Source of the DNA: Microbulbifer flavimaris
GTDB taxonomy: Bacteria > Pseudomonadota > Gammaproteobacteria > Pseudomonadales > Cellvibrionaceae
Direction: 5' to 3'
NCBI RefSeq assembly: GCF_001641755.2
Contig: NZ_LRFG02000005.1
Span: 1-64,000 of the forward strand
DNA length: 64,000 bases
In this document: positions 18,016-28,543 of the stretch, in pieces
Position numbering within the stretch: position 1 is the first letter of the stretch
Layout: every line of letters begins with the position of its first letter
Translations under genes and position numbers: made by a program
Notes under the pieces: generated by a model
The model's input: only the letters and a program-made list of their open reading frames with translations
What the model was told of the DNA's origin: nothing
Databases searched by the model: none

Positions 18016-18281
18016 GCAACAGGCTCGCGGTTCACTGAACGATCATCCCCTGTGGGGATGCAGCCATCGCCATACCGCCCTGTCTGTTCTTTTGTATGGC
18101 CACCTCCACCGCCTCGCGTATCCGTGCAGATTGATCCGACGGCGCGAATGCCGTCTTTGTGCGGCGCCTGAAGTCGTCTCTTCCTCCCCCAATGCGCGTC
18201 TGGCAACCACTTTGGCGTAGCGGTCTTCGTTTGGCTAAAAAACAACCGTTACACTCAAGGGAGGCTATGGAGGGTCGCGTC
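18016..18281. other. Intergenic region before the first YD lipoprotein
   Basis: No gene or repeat is evident. The frame of the downstream gene stays open through much of this stretch, but the lipobox position and comparison with the paralogue at 23718 place the start at its right end. Confidence 0.4.
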
Positions 18282-20585
18282 TTGAGAGGTTTTCTACGCG
18301 GGAGCTTGGTTGTCATTAGCCTGCTTGCGCTCATCGCGTGCGGTGGGGGAGGCGGCGGTGACAGTAAGAGTAGTACTGCGGCAACGACCGCTGCGGTCAC
18401 ATCGACCAGTGCAGCAGCAACAATCCAAACCGGCCGGCTGACGGAAGTCATCATTGCTGGTCTGGCATACCGCACCGAGAGCCAATCCGGTGTTACCAGT
18501 GACACGGGAGAGTTCTCTTACCTGCCGGGAGAGACGATCCAGTTCTTCCTCGGCGATACGCCCATCGGCTTTGCTGTGCGCGCGCAGGAAAGGCTGCGAA
18601 TTCTGGACCTGTTCCCCGATATCCGCCTCTACCGCAACTTCAACCAATTACGGCGGCTATTCAGCGCAGCGCCTTTCAATCGGGAGCGGATCGACTTTAA
18701 CCGCTTCCACAATACCCTGTTCCTGCTCGAGGCATTTGATCGTGATTCGGACCTGGGTAACGGTGTTGTGATCGAGCCGGGCGTTCGTGACCTGCTGGAG
18801 AATATTCTGTTCGATGTCGAAGTCGATGCCCTCGACTATGCCCGCCACTATGTGCCACTGATTTACTTCCGCAACCGGGCCGATGAATTGGGGCTCGTGG
18901 ACTCGGGGGCGGTCCTCGATACCGGCATGGTTCTGGATACCTATTACGAGGCCATCGAGCTGGTCGGCAGCTTTTTCGTACCTGTTTTCAAGAGTCGTGA
19001 CTTCCTCTTTGATGAGATTCTCGATGAGCTTGAACGCTTCGACTATGACGACGACGGCAACATCACCGAACTGGTCACCGAATCCGACCGCGAGATTCTG
19101 AGACGGGTTTCCCGTTTTGCCACTTACGATGGGTTTGGCAATATTCTCACCTGGAGTTTCGAGCCCGATGCCTTTCTTGTCGACGATGAGTTCGCGGAGT
19201 TCGAGTATGACGATGCCGGGAACCTGGTCAGCCTGAGGGAGGACCTCGACGGCAATGGCACCCTCGATCGGGTGAGAAACTGGGCATATGATTTTGGAGA
19301 CCTGTTCTTCTCTGTGACTTACACCGAGGATTCCGACGGGGATAGTGTGGTCGACGAAGAGTTCACCGTTTCATACCAGCTGGATGAACGGGGCCGGCTG
19401 CAGCAAGTGCGCCGCGATGACCAGCTGTTGGCTGAATACACTTTCCAGGAAAACGGACGCACGGCTTCAGAAACAATCTTTTCGCCACGCAGCGGTGAAC
19501 CGTTTCGTGTGATCGAGTTTGACGAGGCGGGCAGGGTCAGTTCGCTGCGTCGACAGCTTGGCGATGCAGGGGAGGGGCTCTGGGAGTTCTTCTACGGTTC
19601 GCGGGATAACCTGGTTCGCGCGCGATTTACCCGCTCCGGTGCCGACTTTGTCGAATACCGGATTCTGGTGGAGTGGGAATATGATATCCAGGGTAACCTC
19701 ACCCTCTATACCGTCGACCTGAGGGAGGACGGGGACACGGATTTCTCCCGGGAGTATGTCTACGACGACAATGATCGCCTGGTGCGTGAAGTCTGGTTCG
19801 AATTTACCGGCGACCTGCGCACCGCAGTCTTCGAAATTGCTTATGCCTACGATACGGATGGTCTGCTGATACGAAAAGTACAGACCAACCTGCTCGCCTC
19901 CGCGCCCCTTCTGCCCAGTACCGATGTGGTGGCCTTTATCTACAGCTATGACGATCGCAATAACCTGGTCTCTGTGGTGCGCGACGATGGCAACAATGGA
20001 TCGCTGGATTTTGAAAAGGCCTTTGAGCTGCGGCGGGAGAACTGGCGGGCGGCACTGCTCTGGATCGAGAACCCCTCGGTTTATTCGGCCTCACCTTTTG
20101 CAGAACTGCCCAGCCGGCAGATTTTGCGCCGGCGCCTTATCGCGGAGCTGGAGACGGAGGACATTGTCGACAGCAGCCTGGAGCGCCTGCTGCGTACTGA
20201 CGAGGAGTTTCGCAGGTTGGCCGGCCTTGAGGTCATAAGCATCAACTGCGAAACGCCCTTCGCGCTCGAGTTTTTCGACAATGGCGAGGTTATTCTGCGG
20301 GATCGCTCGGATGTCCGGGAGGATGCCGTCGTCCTTACCTGGTTCCTGCTCATGCGTGGGGTTGTAGTGATCGAGGATGGTGGGCTGGAGTACAGTTTCC
20401 GCCTCCGGCGCTACCCGGAGATCCCCCGGGTCTACCCACAAGCCGCGGGCCCCGGGGGGACTATCGTTACGCTGGAGCCGCTGGATTTTTATCCGCTGCC
20501 GTACGCATGCAACTATCGGGCGAGATCTGAAAAGGTGGATTTTCGGCCAGTCTGGCGTGAGGAGGTTGATATCAGTCGCAGGTGA
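18282..20585 (+). CDS. YD-repeat lipoprotein with Ca-binding-like loops (paralogue 1)
   Basis: Probable outer-membrane lipoprotein of 767 residues; function unknown. The lipobox LIAC puts the lipidated cysteine at residue 20, followed by a glycine run and a Ser/Thr/Ala linker. A conserved N-terminal domain (GLAYRTESQSG, FSYLPGETIQFFLGD) leads into repeats that alternate tyrosine-aspartate patterns (EYDDAGNLVS) with Asp-rich loops (DLDGNGTLD, DSDGDSVVD), recalling RHS and EF-hand/thrombospondin-3 motifs. A roughly 150-residue C-terminal extension is absent from the paralogue at 23718. I chose TTG 18282 because GGAGGG lies seven bases upstream and the cysteine then falls at residue 20 in both paralogues; ATG 18267 is the alternative. 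Confidence 0.75.
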   Translation: MRGFLRGSLVVISLLALIACGGGGGGDSKSSTAATTAAVTSTSAAATIQTGRLTEVIIAGLAYRTESQSGVTSDTGEFSYLPGETIQFFLGDTPIGFAVRAQERLRILDLFPDIRLYRNFNQLRRLFSAAPFNRERIDFNRFHNTLFLLEAFDRDSDLGNGVVIEPGVRDLLENILFDVEVDALDYARHYVPLIYFRNRADELGLVDSGAVLDTGMVLDTYYEAIELVGSFFVPVFKSRDFLFDEILDELERFDYDDDGNITELVTESDREILRRVSRFATYDGFGNILTWSFEPDAFLVDDEFAEFEYDDAGNLVSLREDLDGNGTLDRVRNWAYDFGDLFFSVTYTEDSDGDSVVDEEFTVSYQLDERGRLQQVRRDDQLLAEYTFQENGRTASETIFSPRSGEPFRVIEFDEAGRVSSLRRQLGDAGEGLWEFFYGSRDNLVRARFTRSGADFVEYRILVEWEYDIQGNLTLYTVDLREDGDTDFSREYVYDDNDRLVREVWFEFTGDLRTAVFEIAYAYDTDGLLIRKVQTNLLASAPLLPSTDVVAFIYSYDDRNNLVSVVRDDGNNGSLDFEKAFELRRENWRAALLWIENPSVYSASPFAELPSRQILRRRLIAELETEDIVDSSLERLLRTDEEFRRLAGLEVISINCETPFALEFFDNGEVILRDRSDVREDAVVLTWFLLMRGVVVIEDGGLEYSFRLRRYPEIPRVYPQAAGPGGTIVTLEPLDFYPLPYACNYRARSEKVDFRPVWREEVDISRR

Positions 20586-20902
20586 TCTGTAAAGGCGTCG
20601 CTGCAACAGAGCAGTGAGAATAATCCGCATCGCAGAAGAGGGGTGGTTTCAGCAAGGCACCTTTCGCTTGGCGCATAAATCCGCATTGTTTTTAACAATC
20701 AAACCAGCTCTCCTCTTAATTTTTTGTGATTTCCATCCGCCGATTGATCCCATTTCGGTATTTCAATAGGCTGCATATCACAACCTCAGCCAGCTTGGGG
20801 TAACGCTCCTTTCGCACTGAACCGACACAGATCACATCGGTCGCGAGCGGGAGCATTGGCTGGACCAGGGGAATAACGAGATAAAAAAGAGGATGAGAGC
20901 CC
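20586..20902. other. Intergenic region before the TonB-dependent receptor
   Basis: No gene is seen. It holds an inverted repeat, ATTGTT-TTT-AACAAT (20685-20699), which could be an operator or a short stem, and an AT-rich patch around 20715-20730. GAGGA at 20889-20893 serves the receptor start. No confident -35/-10 pair. Confidence 0.4.
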
Positions 20903-23497
20903 ATGAAGACCTTCTCACTCAAGCCACTTTCTCTGGCTGTTGCCGCTGTATTGACGCTGCCAGTGTCGGCTTTTGCACAGCAGTCTGGTGAATCACAAGC
21001 CGATGACGGCCGTATGGAAGAGGTGATTACCACCGGTACCCGCGTCGAGGGCCTGTCGCCCACCGAGACGCTGTCCCCCGTCGACGTGCTTGGCGGCGAA
21101 AACCTGTCCGACCAGGCCAGCTTTGACCTGACCGAGTCCCTGGCCAAAATTGCGCCTTCTTTCAACACCCAGCGCTTCCCGATTGCGGACGGTACTGCCT
21201 TTATCCGCCCGGTGACCCTGCGCAACCTGTCTCCCGACCAGACCCTGGTGCTGGTCAATGGCACCCGCCGCCATCGCTCCGCGCTGGTCAACCTGCAGAT
21301 TGCACCGCTGGGTACCGTCAACCAGGGCGCCCAGGCGGTGGACTTTGCCGCGCTGCCGTCGGCCGCCATCGAGCGGGTTGAAGTGCTGCGCGACGGTGCC
21401 TCGGCCCAGTATGGCTCCGATGCCATTGCCGGGGTGGTCAATGTGATCCTGAAGGATGACGCTGAGGGCGTGAGTGTCTCCGCCCAAACTGGCGAGTACT
21501 TCGAAGGCGACGGTGCCCGCACCAGCCTGGCTGCCAATGCCGGCTTTGCCCTTGGTGACCAGGGCTTTGTAAATACCACCATCGAACACTCCACCGCCGA
21601 GAAGACCTGGCGCGGTGCTGCCCGTCCGGATGCAGAATTTGTTGGTAGCGTGGTGGGCGTGGAGAATGTGCCGCTGGACGGTCTGGGCCAGCGCTGGGGT
21701 GACCCGGATGTGGAAGCGCTGAAACTGTTTGTGAACACTGGCTATGAGCTGGATAACGGTGTCGAGCTGTACGGCAATGTCGGCTACTCGGAGAACGAGA
21801 CCATCTCCGACTTCTTCTACCGCGGCCCGGTACTGGACCCGCAGTACGAGTTCGGCGCCCGTGCGACTTTGCAGGCCGATGGTGATGGCGACTTCATGCC
21901 GGATGCGGCGCCGCAGTCCCTGATCAATTCCATTACCGCCCAGGGGCTGAACCCGGGGGACTACCTGGTGGCGGATGCCTCCAGTGCAAGCGGTTACGTA
22001 CTGCGCAACCCGATCTACACCCAGTTCCCCGGCGGCTACAACCCGCAGTTCGGTGCGGACATCAGTGACTTTTCTGCCGTCTTTGGCGCTCGCGGTGAGC
22101 TGGCTTCCGGCATGAGCTGGGATCTCCGCGCGCGCTCCGCGGAGAACGAAGTTTCTTACGTGCTGAAAGACTCCATCAACCCGAGCCTGGGTGCCCTGTC
22201 CCCGACGACCTTCAATCCGGGCACCCTGACCCAGGAAGAGACCAGCGTGAACGCGGACTTTGTCCAGCCGGTGGATATCGATGGCCTGGCTTCGCCCCTG
22301 AACGTCGCCTTCGGGGCGGAATGGCGCGATGAGACCTACAAGATTGGTGCCGGGGATGATGCCTCCATTGCTGTAGGTCCTACCGCGGCCGTGTTCGGTG
22401 TGGGTTCTGATGGCTTCCAGGGCTTCCCCACCGATGCCGCCGGCAGCTTCAGCAGTGAGAGCATGGCTGCCTACGTGGATCTGGAAGCGGATGTCACCGA
22501 TCAATTCACTGTCGGTGCGGCGCTGCGCTTCGAAGACTACGATGCATTCGGCTCGACCTCTGACTGGAAGCTGTCCGGGCGCTACGACTTCAACGAGCGC
22601 TTCGCGCTGCGTGCCACGGCCAATACCGGCTTCCGTGCCCCGACTCCGGGCCAGGTGAACACGCTGAACGTCACCACCACAGCCGATGCCAGCGGTAACC
22701 TGATCCCGAACGGGACCTATCCGGTGGACAACCCCGTGGCCCTGGCGCTGGGTGCCAAACCGCTGACACCGGAAGAGTCCACCAGCTTTACCCTCGGCGC
22801 AGTCATCAATCCACTGGATAACACCAGCGTGACCCTGGACTACTACCGCATCAATATCGACGATCGACTCGCACTGCGTAACAACACCATCGGTGCCGGC
22901 GAGGTGGCTTTGCTGGAGGGCGCCGGTGTGGCGAATGCCTCCCTGCTGCAGGGCAGCAACGCCAACTTCTTCGTCAATGCGTACGACTCCGAGGTGAGCG
23001 GTATCGATATCGCGGTCACCAGCGACTTCGAAGTGGCTGGCAACCTGCTGGTGGTGGATCTGCGTCACAATCACAACCAGCAGGAAGTGAGCAATGTGGC
23101 CCCGAATACTATCAATGATTCGCGGGTGTATGACCTGGAGAACCAGGTGCCGAGCGATCGCACGACCCTGACCTTCAACTACGACACCGGCAGCCTGTTT
23201 AATAGCTACCTGCGCCTGAACCGCTACAGCGGCTGGGAGTCCACCTTCGGCCTGTTCGGTCCGGGTGATGCCTCCGATGCCACCAGCTATGGCAGTGAGA
23301 TCCTTGTGGATGTTGAGGCGACGTTCACCCTCGCCGACAACTACAAGGTTTCCGTCGGTGGTGAGAATATCTTCGATACTCTGCCGGACGAAGAGGCTGA
23401 TCCCACCCTGCAGTTCCTGGGGGTGCGTCAGTCCCTCACCTCTCCGTTCGGGTTTAATGGTGGCTTCTGGTACCTGCGTGCCAGTGCAGAGTTCTGA
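20903..23497 (+). CDS. TonB-dependent receptor
   Basis: Outer-membrane active transporter of 864 residues; it imports a scarce ligand using TonB-ExbBD energy. A signal peptide ends near SAFA (residue 25). A TonB-box-like MEEVITTGTR follows near 38, then the plug domain with the conserved RVEVLRDGASAQYGSDAIAG and VVNVILKDD, and a beta-barrel ending in an aromatic residue (LRASAEF). No siderophore, vitamin or sugar enzyme lies beside it, so the ligand is unknown. It sits between two paralogous lipoproteins on the same strand and is followed by its own terminator. Confidence 0.92.
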   Translation: MKTFSLKPLSLAVAAVLTLPVSAFAQQSGESQADDGRMEEVITTGTRVEGLSPTETLSPVDVLGGENLSDQASFDLTESLAKIAPSFNTQRFPIADGTAFIRPVTLRNLSPDQTLVLVNGTRRHRSALVNLQIAPLGTVNQGAQAVDFAALPSAAIERVEVLRDGASAQYGSDAIAGVVNVILKDDAEGVSVSAQTGEYFEGDGARTSLAANAGFALGDQGFVNTTIEHSTAEKTWRGAARPDAEFVGSVVGVENVPLDGLGQRWGDPDVEALKLFVNTGYELDNGVELYGNVGYSENETISDFFYRGPVLDPQYEFGARATLQADGDGDFMPDAAPQSLINSITAQGLNPGDYLVADASSASGYVLRNPIYTQFPGGYNPQFGADISDFSAVFGARGELASGMSWDLRARSAENEVSYVLKDSINPSLGALSPTTFNPGTLTQEETSVNADFVQPVDIDGLASPLNVAFGAEWRDETYKIGAGDDASIAVGPTAAVFGVGSDGFQGFPTDAAGSFSSESMAAYVDLEADVTDQFTVGAALRFEDYDAFGSTSDWKLSGRYDFNERFALRATANTGFRAPTPGQVNTLNVTTTADASGNLIPNGTYPVDNPVALALGAKPLTPEESTSFTLGAVINPLDNTSVTLDYYRINIDDRLALRNNTIGAGEVALLEGAGVANASLLQGSNANFFVNAYDSEVSGIDIAVTSDFEVAGNLLVVDLRHNHNQQEVSNVAPNTINDSRVYDLENQVPSDRTTLTFNYDTGSLFNSYLRLNRYSGWESTFGLFGPGDASDATSYGSEILVDVEATFTLADNYKVSVGGENIFDTLPDEEADPTLQFLGVRQSLTSPFGFNGGFWYLRASAEF

Positions 23498-23520
23498 TCA
23501 AACCTGACTGATGAAGTGAA

Positions 23521-23546
23521 AAAGGCCGGCGAATGCCGGCCTTTTT
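23521..23546 (+). terminator. Intrinsic terminator after the TonB-dependent receptor
   Basis: Stem AAGGCCGGC, loop GAAT, stem GCCGGCCTT with a T-run ending in TTTTT. It separates the receptor transcript from the second YD lipoprotein. Confidence 0.9.
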
Positions 23547-23717
23547 CATTTGGTGACAGGGTGGGTTTTTCACAGAAAAAAGTATCTTTACTGAGCTTAT
23601 TTTGTGTTGATTAATTCGTGGTTGGTGATATTTTCGGAATTTATGATTTTCAGTTTGTAAATGTTTGTCAGTGGTAGGAGTCCAATATCGTAAGCTTGTA
23701 GAAAATTAGGAGAAACC

Positions 23718-25559
23718 GTGAAAGAAGGATTTAGAAGGGCATATTGCCTAATCTCAGTGGTGATACTTTGTGCCTGCGGTGGTGGAGGTGGTGGGGGCAG
23801 TAGTCCAAGTTCTTCTGAGGCAGAGGGGAGCTCGAACAGTGATAATCAACTCTTAACCGGGAAGCTAATTGCTCCCCAGATAGCCGGGTTGAGATATGTA
23901 ACGGATAGCCAATCAGGTTACACTAATTCCAGTTCTGAATTTTCTTATAAGAGCGGGGAGCAGGTCCAATTTTACCTTGGTGATACTGTAATTGGAGAGA
24001 CAATAGGAGCTATTGGTGATTTAAGTTTCAGAGATTTGTTTCCTGCCTACAAAGATTATTCTAATTTCCATGAGATCAAGACGCTTTATTCCCTGAGCCC
24101 CAATTCTGAGGAAAGAAAAGCGTTTAATCGCTTTCACAACACATTGGCGTTACTTGCTGGATTCGACAGTGACGCGGACTTTTCAACAGGGATTGATTTG
24201 GTGGATGGGGTCAGTGAAACCCTTGATGGTGTTATTTTTGCCCTTGAAACAGATGTTCAAGCGTTCTCGCATGTTGACCCCGCTTTTTTTTACTATAGAA
24301 ATGTTGCTTTTTCTAAAGGGGAAGTCGCTACTGCTGCGAACCGGGCAGCGGGAACCGTAGCGGACGCTTATTACTCCACCATTGGTTCTGGCTTCGATTT
24401 CTCGTTGCCTACTTACGAGACCGCAGATTATAACCAGGATGGTGTTCCGGAAAGAGTTGAGAAGTACTCTTATGATGCTCGCGGCAATCGAATTTTAGAG
24501 GCATACAGCAATACCGGTTCCGGGCCGCTTATCGGTAGCTCCCTGACCTACGATGAATATGGTCGCGTCCTCACTATTTCTTATGACGCTGACGGGGACG
24601 GAGTGAATGATTCATACTCTGAATATGAGTACAGCGTGGCGGGTAACTTAGTCGGTATCAGCGTGGATAGTAATGCTGACGGAGATTTTGATAGATCCCA
24701 GACTCGCTCGTATGAGTTTCAAGATAAATCCTATATTTATCGCTATAGAGAGGATCAAGATGGAGATGGTATAACTGATCTCGCCTATACATTGGAATAC
24801 AAGCTTTCTCCGGTGGGGCTGCTCGAGTCAGTCCTTTTGGATGAAGTGAAAGTTTTGGCTCTAGAGTATCAATCTGACGGAACGCTTGTTGCAGAGCATA
24901 CCTATCGTTGGACCGGGGAGCTGGACCGCACCAAGACCTATGATGACTTTGGCAGGCTTGTGTCAGATGAGACTTTCTTTGGCCCTTTCGGACCAGGTGA
25001 CGGGTATCGGTGGGACTATACCTACGACGCCCAAGGTAACCGGGTTCAGGCGAAGTATCAGGAGCTGGGGTTGTCTCCCAATCAGTCGTTTCTGATTAAT
25101 AATGAGTTTGACGAGTCAGGAAATTTATTGGAATTTACGCAAGACTTTTATCTCGATGGTAGTGTCGAGCAGAAAAGAGAGTACATTTACGACGAGGGTG
25201 GTAACTTGACCCAGGAGAAGTGGTACGAAGTCACTCAAGGGGGGCAGGTTACCGATTGGCCCAGCAAAACGGTTTCGTACAGCTACAATGAGCAGGGCTT
25301 GGTTAGTGAGAAGTTCACAGAGGACTATACCTACGATGCCCCAGATGATCCGAATGGTGGGAAAGAGAGGACGGTATATCAATATGATCCGGGTGCAAGT
25401 CTAACCTATCTGGGGCGCGATTCTGGTGCAGACGGGAGTGTGGATTACGAGTTCAAGTATGATTTAGAGTTGCTAGGGTGGCGGGCTGCGCTTGAATGGG
25501 CCCCCTCGCTTCACCAGTTTGCGAAACTGCCGTTCGAGGAGAAACTGTACAGCGACTGA
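23718..25559 (+). CDS. YD-repeat lipoprotein with Ca-binding-like loops (paralogue 2)
   Basis: Probable outer-membrane lipoprotein of 613 residues, clearly homologous to the product of 18282-20585. The lipobox LCAC places the cysteine at residue 20, followed by seven glycines. The shared N-terminal domain reads GLRYVTDSQSG, FSYKSGEQVQFYLGD and FNRFHNTLALLAGFD. The repeats contain YDARGNRI and YDEYGRVL with Asp-rich loops (DADGDGVND, DQDGDGITD). It ends soon after GWRAALEW, the point where paralogue 1 continues. Base composition is lower in G+C than the neighbours (25 of 60 in 24061-24120 against 37 of 60 in 19201-19260). AGGAG lies a few bases before the GTG start. Confidence 0.75.
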   Translation: MKEGFRRAYCLISVVILCACGGGGGGGSSPSSSEAEGSSNSDNQLLTGKLIAPQIAGLRYVTDSQSGYTNSSSEFSYKSGEQVQFYLGDTVIGETIGAIGDLSFRDLFPAYKDYSNFHEIKTLYSLSPNSEERKAFNRFHNTLALLAGFDSDADFSTGIDLVDGVSETLDGVIFALETDVQAFSHVDPAFFYYRNVAFSKGEVATAANRAAGTVADAYYSTIGSGFDFSLPTYETADYNQDGVPERVEKYSYDARGNRILEAYSNTGSGPLIGSSLTYDEYGRVLTISYDADGDGVNDSYSEYEYSVAGNLVGISVDSNADGDFDRSQTRSYEFQDKSYIYRYREDQDGDGITDLAYTLEYKLSPVGLLESVLLDEVKVLALEYQSDGTLVAEHTYRWTGELDRTKTYDDFGRLVSDETFFGPFGPGDGYRWDYTYDAQGNRVQAKYQELGLSPNQSFLINNEFDESGNLLEFTQDFYLDGSVEQKREYIYDEGGNLTQEKWYEVTQGGQVTDWPSKTVSYSYNEQGLVSEKFTEDYTYDAPDDPNGGKERTVYQYDPGASLTYLGRDSGADGSVDYEFKYDLELLGWRAALEWAPSLHQFAKLPFEEKLYSD

Positions 25560-25604: not shown

Positions 25605-25635
25605 AAAAATGGCGAGCCCAGGGCTCGCCATTTTT
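25605..25635. terminator. Bidirectional intrinsic terminator, YD lipoprotein / gcvP
   Basis: AAAAATGGCGAGCC, loop CAG, GGCTCGCCATTTTT. The A and T runs on both sides fit termination of the convergent lipoprotein (+) and gcvP (-) transcripts. Confidence 0.92.
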
Positions 25636-25651: not shown

Positions 25652-28543
25652 TCAGTCCATATAGCTCTCTACCGGCGGGCAGGAGCAGATCAGGTTGCGG
25701 TCGCCGAAGACGTTGTCGATGCGGTTGGACGCCGGCCACACCTTGTGTGCCTTCAACCAGGCCGCGGGGCGAGCCGCAACGTCACGGGAATAGTTGTGCG
25801 GCCACTGGTCGGCCATCACGTCCTCGAGGGTGTGCGGTGCATTGTGCAGCGGGTTGTCGTCCGCGCTGTAAACACCGTTGGCCACGTCTTCCACTTCCTT
25901 GCGGATGATGGCCATCGCCTCGACAAAGCGGTCCAGCTCTTCCTTGGATTCACTCTCGGTGGGTTCGATCATCAGGGTGCCCGCCACCGGGAAGGACATG
26001 GTGGGCGCGTGGAAGCCGAAGTCCATCAGGCGCTTGGCGATGTCTTCCTCGCTGATGCCGCTGGTCTCCTTGAGCGGGCGCAGGTCGACCAGGCACTCGT
26101 GGGCGATGAAGCCGTTGGTGCCGGTGTAGAGCAGCGAGTAGTGCTCGGACAGGCGCTTGGCCATGTAGTTGGCGTTAAGGATGGCGGTCTCGGTGGCCTG
26201 CTTCATACCGGTCTTGCCCATCATACGGATATACATCCAGCTGATCGGCAGGATGCTGGCAGAACCCCAGGGCGCGGCAGAGATGGTGCCGTTGGTCGGG
26301 TCCGTCTCCGGTACCTCGGTTACCGGGTGGCCGGCCAGGTAGGGCTTCAGGTGTTCGCCCACGGCGATCGGTCCCATGCCCGGGCCGCCGCCACCGTGCG
26401 GGATGCAGAAGGTTTTGTGCAGGTTCAGGTGCGATACATCGCCACCGAACTTACCCGGGGCGGCCACGCCGATCAGGGCGTTCATGTTGGCGCCATCGAT
26501 GTAGACCTGGCCTCCAGCTTCGTGAATCAGGTCGCAAATTTCGCGGATGCCTTCCTCGAACACGCCGTGGGTGGAGGGGTAGGTGACCATCAGCGCGGCG
26601 ACGCGGTCGCCGTGTTCTTCCACCTTGGCCTTCAGGTCGGCCATGTCCACGTTGCCCTTGTTGTCACAGGCAACGACCACCACCTTCATGCTCACCATCA
26701 TGGCAGAGGCCGGGTTGGTACCGTGGGCGGAAGCGGGGATCAGGCAGATATCGCGCTGGCCCTCGCCCTTGGCTTCCAGGTATTTCTTGATGGCCACCAG
26801 GCCTGCATATTCACCCTGGGAGCCGGCATTGGGCTGCAGGCTGACGGCGTCATAGCCGGTACAGGCGGACAGCATCTGCTGCAGCTGCTTGAACATCTCC
26901 GCATAGCCCTCGGCCTGACTGGTCGGGGCAAAGGGGTGCAGCTTGCCGAACTCGGGCCAGGTCACCGGGATCATCTCCGCGGTGGCGTTGAGCTTCATGG
27001 TGCACGAGCCCAGCGGGATCATGGAGTGGTTCAGGGCGATGTCTTTGGACTCCAGGGTCTTCAGATACCGCAGCATCTCCGTTTCGGAGTGGTAGGTGTT
27101 GAAGACCGGGTGGGTCAGGAATTCGGTATCGCGAACGAGGGATGCCGGGACGCCCTGCGGGCCCTTGGCCGCAATCTCGCTGTCCAGTGCGTGCAGGTCC
27201 AGGCCGTGATCACCGTCGGTGAAAGCCTTGAGGATGTCGGATACGTCGTCCAGGCTGGCGGTCTCGTGCAGGCTGATGCCCAGGGCATCTTCGCCGACCT
27301 TGCGCAGATTGATTTCTGCAGCCAGGGCGCGCTGGTAGATAGCGTCGCGCTGGTCGCCGGCCACTACGGTGAGGGTGTCGAACCAGGTATCGTGAGTCAG
27401 GTTGAAGCCCTGCTTTTCCAGGCCCAGAGCCAGAATATCCGCCAGCCGCTGAATACGCGCGGCGATGGTCTTTAGCCCTTCGGGACCGTGGTAGACGGCA
27501 TAAAAGGCGCTCATGACCGCCAGCAGCACCTGGGAGGTACAGATGTTGGAGTTGGCCTTCTCGCGGCGGATATGCTGTTCGCGGGTCTGCATGGCCATAC
27601 GCAGGGCGCGATTGCCCTTGCTGTCTACGGAGACACCGATAATGCGGCCGGGTGCGGCACGCTTGTACGCTTCGCGGAAGGCAAAGAAGCCGGCGTGCGG
27701 GCCGCCGTAACCCATGGGGATGCCGAAGCGCTGGTTGCAGCCGACAACGACGTCAGCGCCCATTTCGCCCGGCGCCTTGAGGGTAACGAGGCTCATCAGG
27801 TCGGCAGCCACGGTCACCAGGCCGTTGGCCTCGTGCACCTTGTTGATGATGTCAGTGAGGTCGCGAACCACACCGGTGGAGCCCGGGTACTGGAACAGGG
27901 CGCCAAACAGCTCGCCGGGCAGGTCCTTTTCCACGTCGCCCACCACGATTTCGAAACCGAAGTGCTCGGCGCGGGTCTTGATCACGGCGATGGTCTGCGG
28001 GTGGCAGTCGGCGTCCACAAAGAAGACATTGGACTTGTTGCGCTTGGCCTGGCGCTTGCACATGGCCATGGCCTCAGCGGCGGCGGTGCCCTCGTCCAGC
28101 ATAGAGGCGTTGGCCAGTTCCATGCCGGTCAGGTCCATGATCATCTGCTGGAAGTTCAGCAGGCCTTCGAGACGGCCCTGGGCGATCTCCGGCTGGTAGG
28201 GGGTGTAGGCGGTATACCAGCCCGGGTTTTCCAGCACGTTGCGCAGGATGACATTGGGCGTGATGGTGTCGTGGTAGCCCATGCCGATAAAGGTGCGGTA
28301 GATCTTGTTGCGCTGGGCCAGGCCGCGCAGCTCTGCCAGCGCTTCCTCTTCGTTCACCGCGTCTGCCAGGTCCAGCTCATCGGTCTTGCGGATGGCGGCG
28401 GGGACTGTTTTCTCGATCAGTTCTTCCAGGCTGGCGACACCGAGGGTTTCCAGCATCTCTTTCACCTGGGCCTCATCCGGGCCGATATGGCGGTGAATAA
28501 ATGCGTCGTGTTGTTCCAACTGCTGAAGAGATGGCTGGGTCAT
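25652..28543 (-). CDS. gcvP: Glycine dehydrogenase (aminomethyl-transferring), P protein
   Basis: PLP enzyme of the glycine cleavage system: decarboxylates glycine and passes the aminomethyl group to the lipoyl arm of the H protein. The 963-residue single-chain form is colinear with E. coli GcvP: N-terminal half from [25 protein letters not shown], and a C-terminal half with the PLP lysine K710 in [19 protein letters not shown]. It stands alone; gcvT and gcvH are not in the window. Regulation is unclear: I looked for a glycine riboswitch upstream and saw none. Confidence 0.97.

Follow-up and report, generated by a model that had tools for sequence, protein, structure and literature searches.

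A TonB-dependent receptor between two YD-repeat lipoproteins of Microbulbifer flavimaris is probably their neighbour by chance

We analysed a stretch of 64,000 nucleotides (the window; positions 1 to 64,000 of contig NZ_LRFG02000005.1, which is contig C5 of the 3.64 Mb Microbulbifer flavimaris genome, here G000) for three consecutive genes on its + strand: a YD-repeat lipoprotein (LP1), a TonB-dependent receptor (TBDR) and a second YD-repeat lipoprotein (LP2), followed in the gene listing by the convergent gcvP. An earlier note, made from the sequence alone, had described two paralogous lipoproteins flanking a TBDR, all on one strand, and this description agrees with the gene calls, with the 35% identity of the two lipoproteins and with the Plug and barrel domains of the receptor. 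The note had further proposed that the three form a lipoprotein/receptor uptake module. Because receptor and lipoproteins usually lie apart in relatives, we consider a chance neighbourhood, and no new uptake machine, to be the probable explanation. The features of the locus are as follows, in window coordinates.

18267..20585, + strand: LP1, YD-repeat lipoprotein, 772 aa; lipobox Cys at residue 25, then GGGGGGD; extra C-terminal part relative to LP2
20127..20582, + strand: C-terminal part of LP1, about residues 621-772; retained in both sister species; without Pfam domain
20744..20772, + strand: putative promoter of the receptor, TTGATC-17-TAGGCT; read by eye in alignments, missed by a consensus scan
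20903..23497, + strand: TBDR, 864 aa; Plug and beta-barrel; in most genomes of the genus
23515..23550, + strand: terminator-like hairpin directly 3' of the receptor; -27 kcal/mol, z -8; not called by a terminator scan
23718..25559, + strand: LP2, YD-repeat lipoprotein, 613 aa; Cys 20, then GGGGGGG; GC 0.475 against 0.602 for the window
23847..24026, + strand: N-terminal beta domain of LP2, residues 44-103; common to SslE/AcfD
24399..25475, + strand: YD-repeat beta meander of LP2, residues 228-586; from Pfam and the predicted fold
25605..25634, + strand: terminator-like hairpin in the gap between LP2 and gcvP; -21.9 kcal/mol, z -4.2; not called by a terminator scan
25652-28543, convergent to LP2: gcvP; Pfam GDC-P

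LP1 and LP2 are homologous over 573 aligned positions (E 1e-100), and the C-terminal ~150 residues of LP1 are without counterpart in LP2. Both exceed the cut-off of 22 for the Pfam family RHS_repeat (34.2 bits for LP1, 37.5 for LP2). YD-type motifs of the form [YF][DNE]xxG number seven in LP1 and nine in LP2; over 1000 shuffles of each protein's own residues the means were 1.3 and 1.7, and no shuffle reached so high a count. The tyrosine-aspartate repeats claimed for both proteins are therefore real, and what had been taken for repeats of no recognised kind are RHS/YD repeats, by Pfam and by fold match. Of the DxDGDG loops claimed for both, LP2 has four of the DxDxDGxxD type (shuffle mean 0.02; 0/1000 as high), and LP1 only one, a count reached in 18 of 1000 shuffles. 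In an alignment of five proteins (A1) the Asp/Gly pattern is constant only in the loop at LP2 residues 317-325, and the other three LP2 loops are missing from some of the five. Calcium binding by these loops is plausible, and perhaps one or a few of them stiffen the YD sheet. The lipobox cysteine, which the note had placed at residue 20 in both proteins, is at that position in LP2 only; in LP1 it is residue 25 from the ATG at 18267, a start codon present in both sister species, and C20 would need a later start.

When built with 27 relatives, the AlphaFold model of LP2 (pLDDT 86.2, pTM 0.82) consists of a small N-terminal beta domain, a helical part and then 26 strands; a model from only five sequences was poor (pLDDT 57.4). 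In Foldseek, Rhs proteins and teneurins rank first (best E 6.4e-15), and the OspA single-layer sheet comes next. VIA-align likewise ranks Rhs proteins and a teneurin first, with Z values reaching 11.0, but unrelated proteins, among them LptD and TarM, follow closely (Z 9). LP1 and LP2 thus resemble the RHS/YD proteins (Rhs effectors, TcC, teneurins and teneurin-like proteins) in their repeats and beta meander, but they are shorter, with a sheet of ~360 residues, their TM-scores are low, and neither a core-end motif nor a toxin was seen in them. The N-terminal domain that the earlier note saw in both proteins was borne out. It gave a profile match to residues 277-345 of PDB chain 23px_A, a solved AcfD homolog (E 2.2e-9), and NCBIfam NF037974 matched LP1 at E 4e-4, far under its own cut-off. 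If the numbering agrees, residues 277-345 fall inside the NT2 region as given in the available text of PMC8881592. These matches suggest a wider distribution of this one SslE/AcfD N-terminal domain. Like SslE/AcfD, LP1 and LP2 have a lipobox, a Gly/Ser-rich stretch and the N-terminal beta domain; unlike them, they carry a YD-repeat sheet, and Pfam gave no match to the M60 metalloprotease domain in either protein. In short, the lipoproteins are known kinds joined in one chain, in which no toxin part was recognised.

The receptor has Plug (66.6 bits) and beta-barrel (106.5 bits) domains and, to judge from its sequence and distribution, is an ordinary, independent Microbulbifer TBDR. An ortholog of at least 66% identity is present in 41 of 48 Microbulbifer genomes; four of the remaining seven have only relatives of 38-41% identity, and three gave no match at E 1e-100. 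The surroundings of the 38 orthologs outside the window genome and its two sister species (G021 and G035) were searched by tblastn with four lipoproteins, and no family lipoprotein was found nearby in any of them (for 37 of them both flanks covered 6 kb or more; one contig ends 190 bases downstream). The same search found the family lipoprotein at both sister-species receptor loci. Contexts of the orthologs vary, and include an aminotransferase with an amidase, a flavin reductase with GDPD, and a DNA polymerase III alpha-type gene.

The A1 profile matched in 21 of the 48 genomes at E 1e-10, and over most of its length in five. Receptor and lipoprotein occur together in 3 of the 41 receptor-bearing genomes; the pair of LP1 and receptor is confined to one small clade of three species, and the complete trio, for which the earlier note had proposed searching other genomes, was found in the window genome only. 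In G021 and G035, LP1 is 77 and 86% and the receptor 96 and 97% identical to the window's, and a 409-aa acyltransferase-like protein replaces LP2 (the G035 copy matches HGSNAT_cat). In G025 and G063 a single LP1/LP2-type lipoprotein lies between an MHYT gene and gcvP, with the receptor on another contig in G025 and ~450 kb away in G063; lipoproteins far from any receptor in relatives were what the note itself had named as speaking against its module. The lone G063 lipoprotein is LP2's nearest relative (52% identity), and in a tree of 20 lipoproteins the two group together (100/99), LP1 forming a separate deep branch. A lone lipoprotein thus occupies the slot before gcvP in G025 and G063, whose receptors are elsewhere, and the tree joins that of G063 to LP2; probably, then, the slot held the LP2 type first and the receptor arrived later.

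Some further observations concern this slot. LP2-type genes in three genomes (window 23718-25559, L020 and L126) have GC contents of 0.475, 0.475 and 0.425, 14-18 points below the adjacent gcvP (0.605-0.626), and this low GC suggests that the slot acquires foreign genes. No MHYT gene is listed in the window between 18015 and LP1. In G021 the match to the MHYT gene ahead of LP1 is split into two pieces that lie in different frames (L021:8326-9068), so that this gene may be broken. A named-genome scan with LP2 alone gave no match and one with the lipoprotein alignment matched 12 loci; tblastn of LP2 on a plasmid collection gave a single weak record, on a cyanobacterial plasmid.

By eye, the alignments show a TTGNNN-17-TACTCT-like block, together with a similar ribosome-binding stretch, in front of many receptor orthologs whose loci are unlinked. 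The window receptor has a variant form of this block (TTGATC-17-TAGGCT). Because a like block precedes orthologs at unlinked loci, the receptor seems to carry its own, putative, promoter. The ribosome-binding stretch is GAGAGGACGGG-like in many orthologs (window 20744-20902; leaders of L034-L063). A structured RNA leader was considered and rejected: the leader in the window is no more stably folded than its shuffled versions (z -0.57), an alignment of 20 of 30 ortholog leaders gave no consensus structure, and the other ten gave 10 pairs, 3 of them changed on both sides, which is too weak to claim. The leaders sort into few groups with possible hairpins and show no firm covariation. Four Rfam matches in the gap between receptor and LP2 were rejected because they were below gathering scores and overlapped the hairpin.

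In both lipoproteins the lipobox cysteine is followed by glycines (CGGGGGG). A lipobox script found the motif in 22 of 27 family members, the other five, including LP2, being read by eye. At least five of the seven residues behind the cysteine are G, S, D or N in 19 of these 22. The same holds for only 3 of 16 lipoproteins from outside the family, a small set that includes some orthologs; two of the three have the same N-terminal domain. According to the available text of PMC12802150, lipoproteins exported by the type II secretion system (T2SS) in Acinetobacter bear GGG or ND(N/D) after the cysteine, and their export requires GspN. The window genome has a T2SS operon (G000:C1:887000-903000; L215, L216), in which nine of ten scanned proteins match T2SS families; C, D, E, F, G, I, J, K and L were assigned by Pfam, and H and M by gene order. 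As the family bears GGG-type stretches and the genome has this operon, LP1 and LP2 are likely displayed on the cell surface, and the T2SS is a plausible route. They share the GGG stretch with T2SS-exported lipoproteins of the InvL/PulA type, from which they differ in that GspN was not found in G000 and that export of LP1 and LP2 is a prediction.

We favour, with a probability of about 0.6, the reading that LP1 and LP2 are outer-membrane RHS/YD-repeat lipoproteins of a surface scaffold or adhesion type, and that the receptor is independent of them and lies between them by chance. The SslE-like N-terminal domain and the small helical part would carry the long YD beta sheet, a rod or scaffold, perhaps stiffened by calcium, through which the protein would adhere or make contact with a matrix. 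We postulate that in the ancestor of the three species the receptor moved, own promoter included, into the variable slot before gcvP. An adhesive or scaffold role is our best guess for LP1 and LP2. The shared strand and closeness of the three genes do not imply a shared function here.

Several observations weigh against this reading. LP1 and the receptor are adjacent in all three sister species. In most genomes the ortholog survey scored only part of its first-look candidates, and the receptor absences are therefore not firm. The Foldseek matches have low TM-scores (0.08-0.26 by model length), and the overall curvature of the sheet is for that reason not established as that of a known shell. 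A genome-wide Pfam search for GspN (PF01203) gave no match (the same search was positive in 2 of 14 control genomes), and no frame of GspN size lies behind gspM. Seven of the 30 printed receptor leaders have a different upstream region, the promoter consensus scan called nothing in the gap between LP1 and receptor, and the simple terminator scan called neither hairpin. Lastly, more distant YD-lipoproteins (631-757 aa as called) occupy another conserved site in 16 Microbulbifer genomes, and in 8 of the 16 a different TBDR lies one or two genes from them. For two or more adjacent loci in seven, the post hoc chance comes to roughly 0.008 on an assumed gene number, and a reading by chance must take this adjacency as coincidence. 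The repeated closeness at this second locus is the one result that favours the partner idea of the earlier note.

The neighbours at the second locus are partly constant (Pyr_redox_2, a CitMHS-type transporter and CBS). Its TBDR, whose Pfam identity comes from two examined copies, is always on the strand opposite to the YD-lipoproteins, two of which flank it in G025 and G063 (L024:8011-14410 and L127:6145-12608); in six more genomes it stands beside one. In the eight genomes without a neighbouring receptor, gene lists read by eye contained none, and in seven of the eight tblastn with two receptors likewise gave nothing; the loci covered by that search, L025, L027, L029, L030, L031, L132, L134 and L135, were all without a receptor match (L132 gave no match at all). 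The receptor occurs in 22 copies (at least 59% identity) in 21 genomes; by coordinates 14 of these are not beside a YD-lipoprotein, and 6 of the 14 are in genomes without a lipoprotein profile match. The receptor profile recovers 29 receptors in the window genome against 34 by the Pfam cut-off, so the survey of this locus may miss some. A genome-wide baseline for lipoprotein genes beside receptor genes was set aside, both for this shortfall and because gene starts were called and lipoboxes recognised too crudely (false flags, and LP2 itself missed).

Other lipoprotein and receptor neighbourhoods were also noted. Outside the genus, no receptor was found in the stretches around three Halioglobus YD-lipoprotein loci (L086, L158, L159), and at L165 a receptor lies three genes from the YD-lipoprotein. 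In G059 (L136:6241-11935) a 947-aa TBDR is followed immediately, on the same strand, by an 823-aa lipoprotein that has the SslE-type N-terminal domain and matches BNR_2 weakly. The window genome encodes, at L128, a protein with SslE-type domain and BNR_2 matches, and no receptor was seen in the gene list there. Four TBDR genes lie within 14 kb at G000:C2:193500-213400 (L176); the gene ahead of them starts like what we take to be a FecR-type protein.

Three other explanations assign the receptor a partner. That LP1 and the receptor alone are a recent functional pair of the three-species clade, with LP2 a bystander, is unlikely. Their order is constant in 3/3 species and two of these have the acyltransferase-like gene at LP2's place, but gcvP is 94-96% identical among the three genomes, which are so closely related that they amount to a single event. 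The 317-base gap between the two genes, moreover, contains the receptor's promoter-like block, and identities to the window's genes of 96-97% for the receptor versus 77-86% for LP1 indicate that the two evolve at a different pace; LP1 appears to change faster, as surface accessory genes often do. We rate as distinctly less likely the proposal that LP1 and LP2 serve the receptor as extracellular lids or capture proteins, as SusD or other surface lipoproteins do for their TBDRs. Besides the one-strand trio of the window and the LP1-receptor pair of the sister species, the second locus speaks for it, with a YD-lipoprotein beside another TBDR in 8 of 16 genomes, and on both sides in two. However, 38 of 41 receptor orthologs are without a family lipoprotein nearby, G025 and G063 carry theirs apart from the receptor, and a receptor present in 41 of 48 genomes compares with close LP1/LP2 relatives in 5 and any profile match in 21. 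A hairpin separates the receptor from LP2, and the second-locus receptor is on the opposite strand, with 14 of its 22 copies not beside a YD-lipoprotein. The SusCD-type logic suggested by the earlier note fares no better: as in SusC/SusD pairs a lipoprotein gene adjoins a TBDR gene, but Pfam and NCBIfam scans of LP1 and LP2 found no SusD family, the receptor scores 18.9 bits against a cut-off of 46.2 for the SusC/RagA signature TIGR04057, the pairing is not conserved (3/41 genomes), and the transcription signals are separate. The least likely of all the readings is that SslE-type YD-lipoproteins are a promiscuous new class of TBDR surface partner, exchangeable capture scaffolds that are separately transcribed. 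Its basis is the two separate loci with different receptors, the gcvP slot and the second locus; no title on a YD-lipoprotein/TBDR pairing appeared in the open-access literature searched.

Alternatively, LP1 and LP2 could be RHS polymorphic toxins or teneurin-like surface toxin carriers, which we consider very unlikely, if a little less so than lids for the receptor. The YD/RHS repeats and the fold matches to Rhs effectors, TcC-type proteins and teneurins fit this idea, and Gram-negative teneurin-like proteins likewise have predicted lipoprotein signals in the available text of PMC13018210. Against it, the LP2 chain stops soon past the YD sheet, and the C-terminal part of LP1, which matches no Pfam family, is constant in three species and not variable. 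A DPxG motif closes RHS cores; it is absent from LP1, and the single DPxG of LP2 lies in the sheet. No clear immunity gene of at least 80 aa was found on the + strand in the 317 bases after LP1, or starting in the 92 bases after LP2.

On the reading that we prefer, surface lipoproteins and an independent receptor, the locus is a caution: strand, closeness and paralogy hinted at a module, and relatives dissolve it. If the surface reading is true, LP1 and LP2 would offer a tractable case of T2SS lipoprotein delivery in a genome in which no GspN was found. They would also define a family in which an SslE-type N-terminal domain and a YD sheet, with no recognised toxin, are carried on a lipoprotein, and so would provide a case for a role of YD sheets that enclose no toxin.

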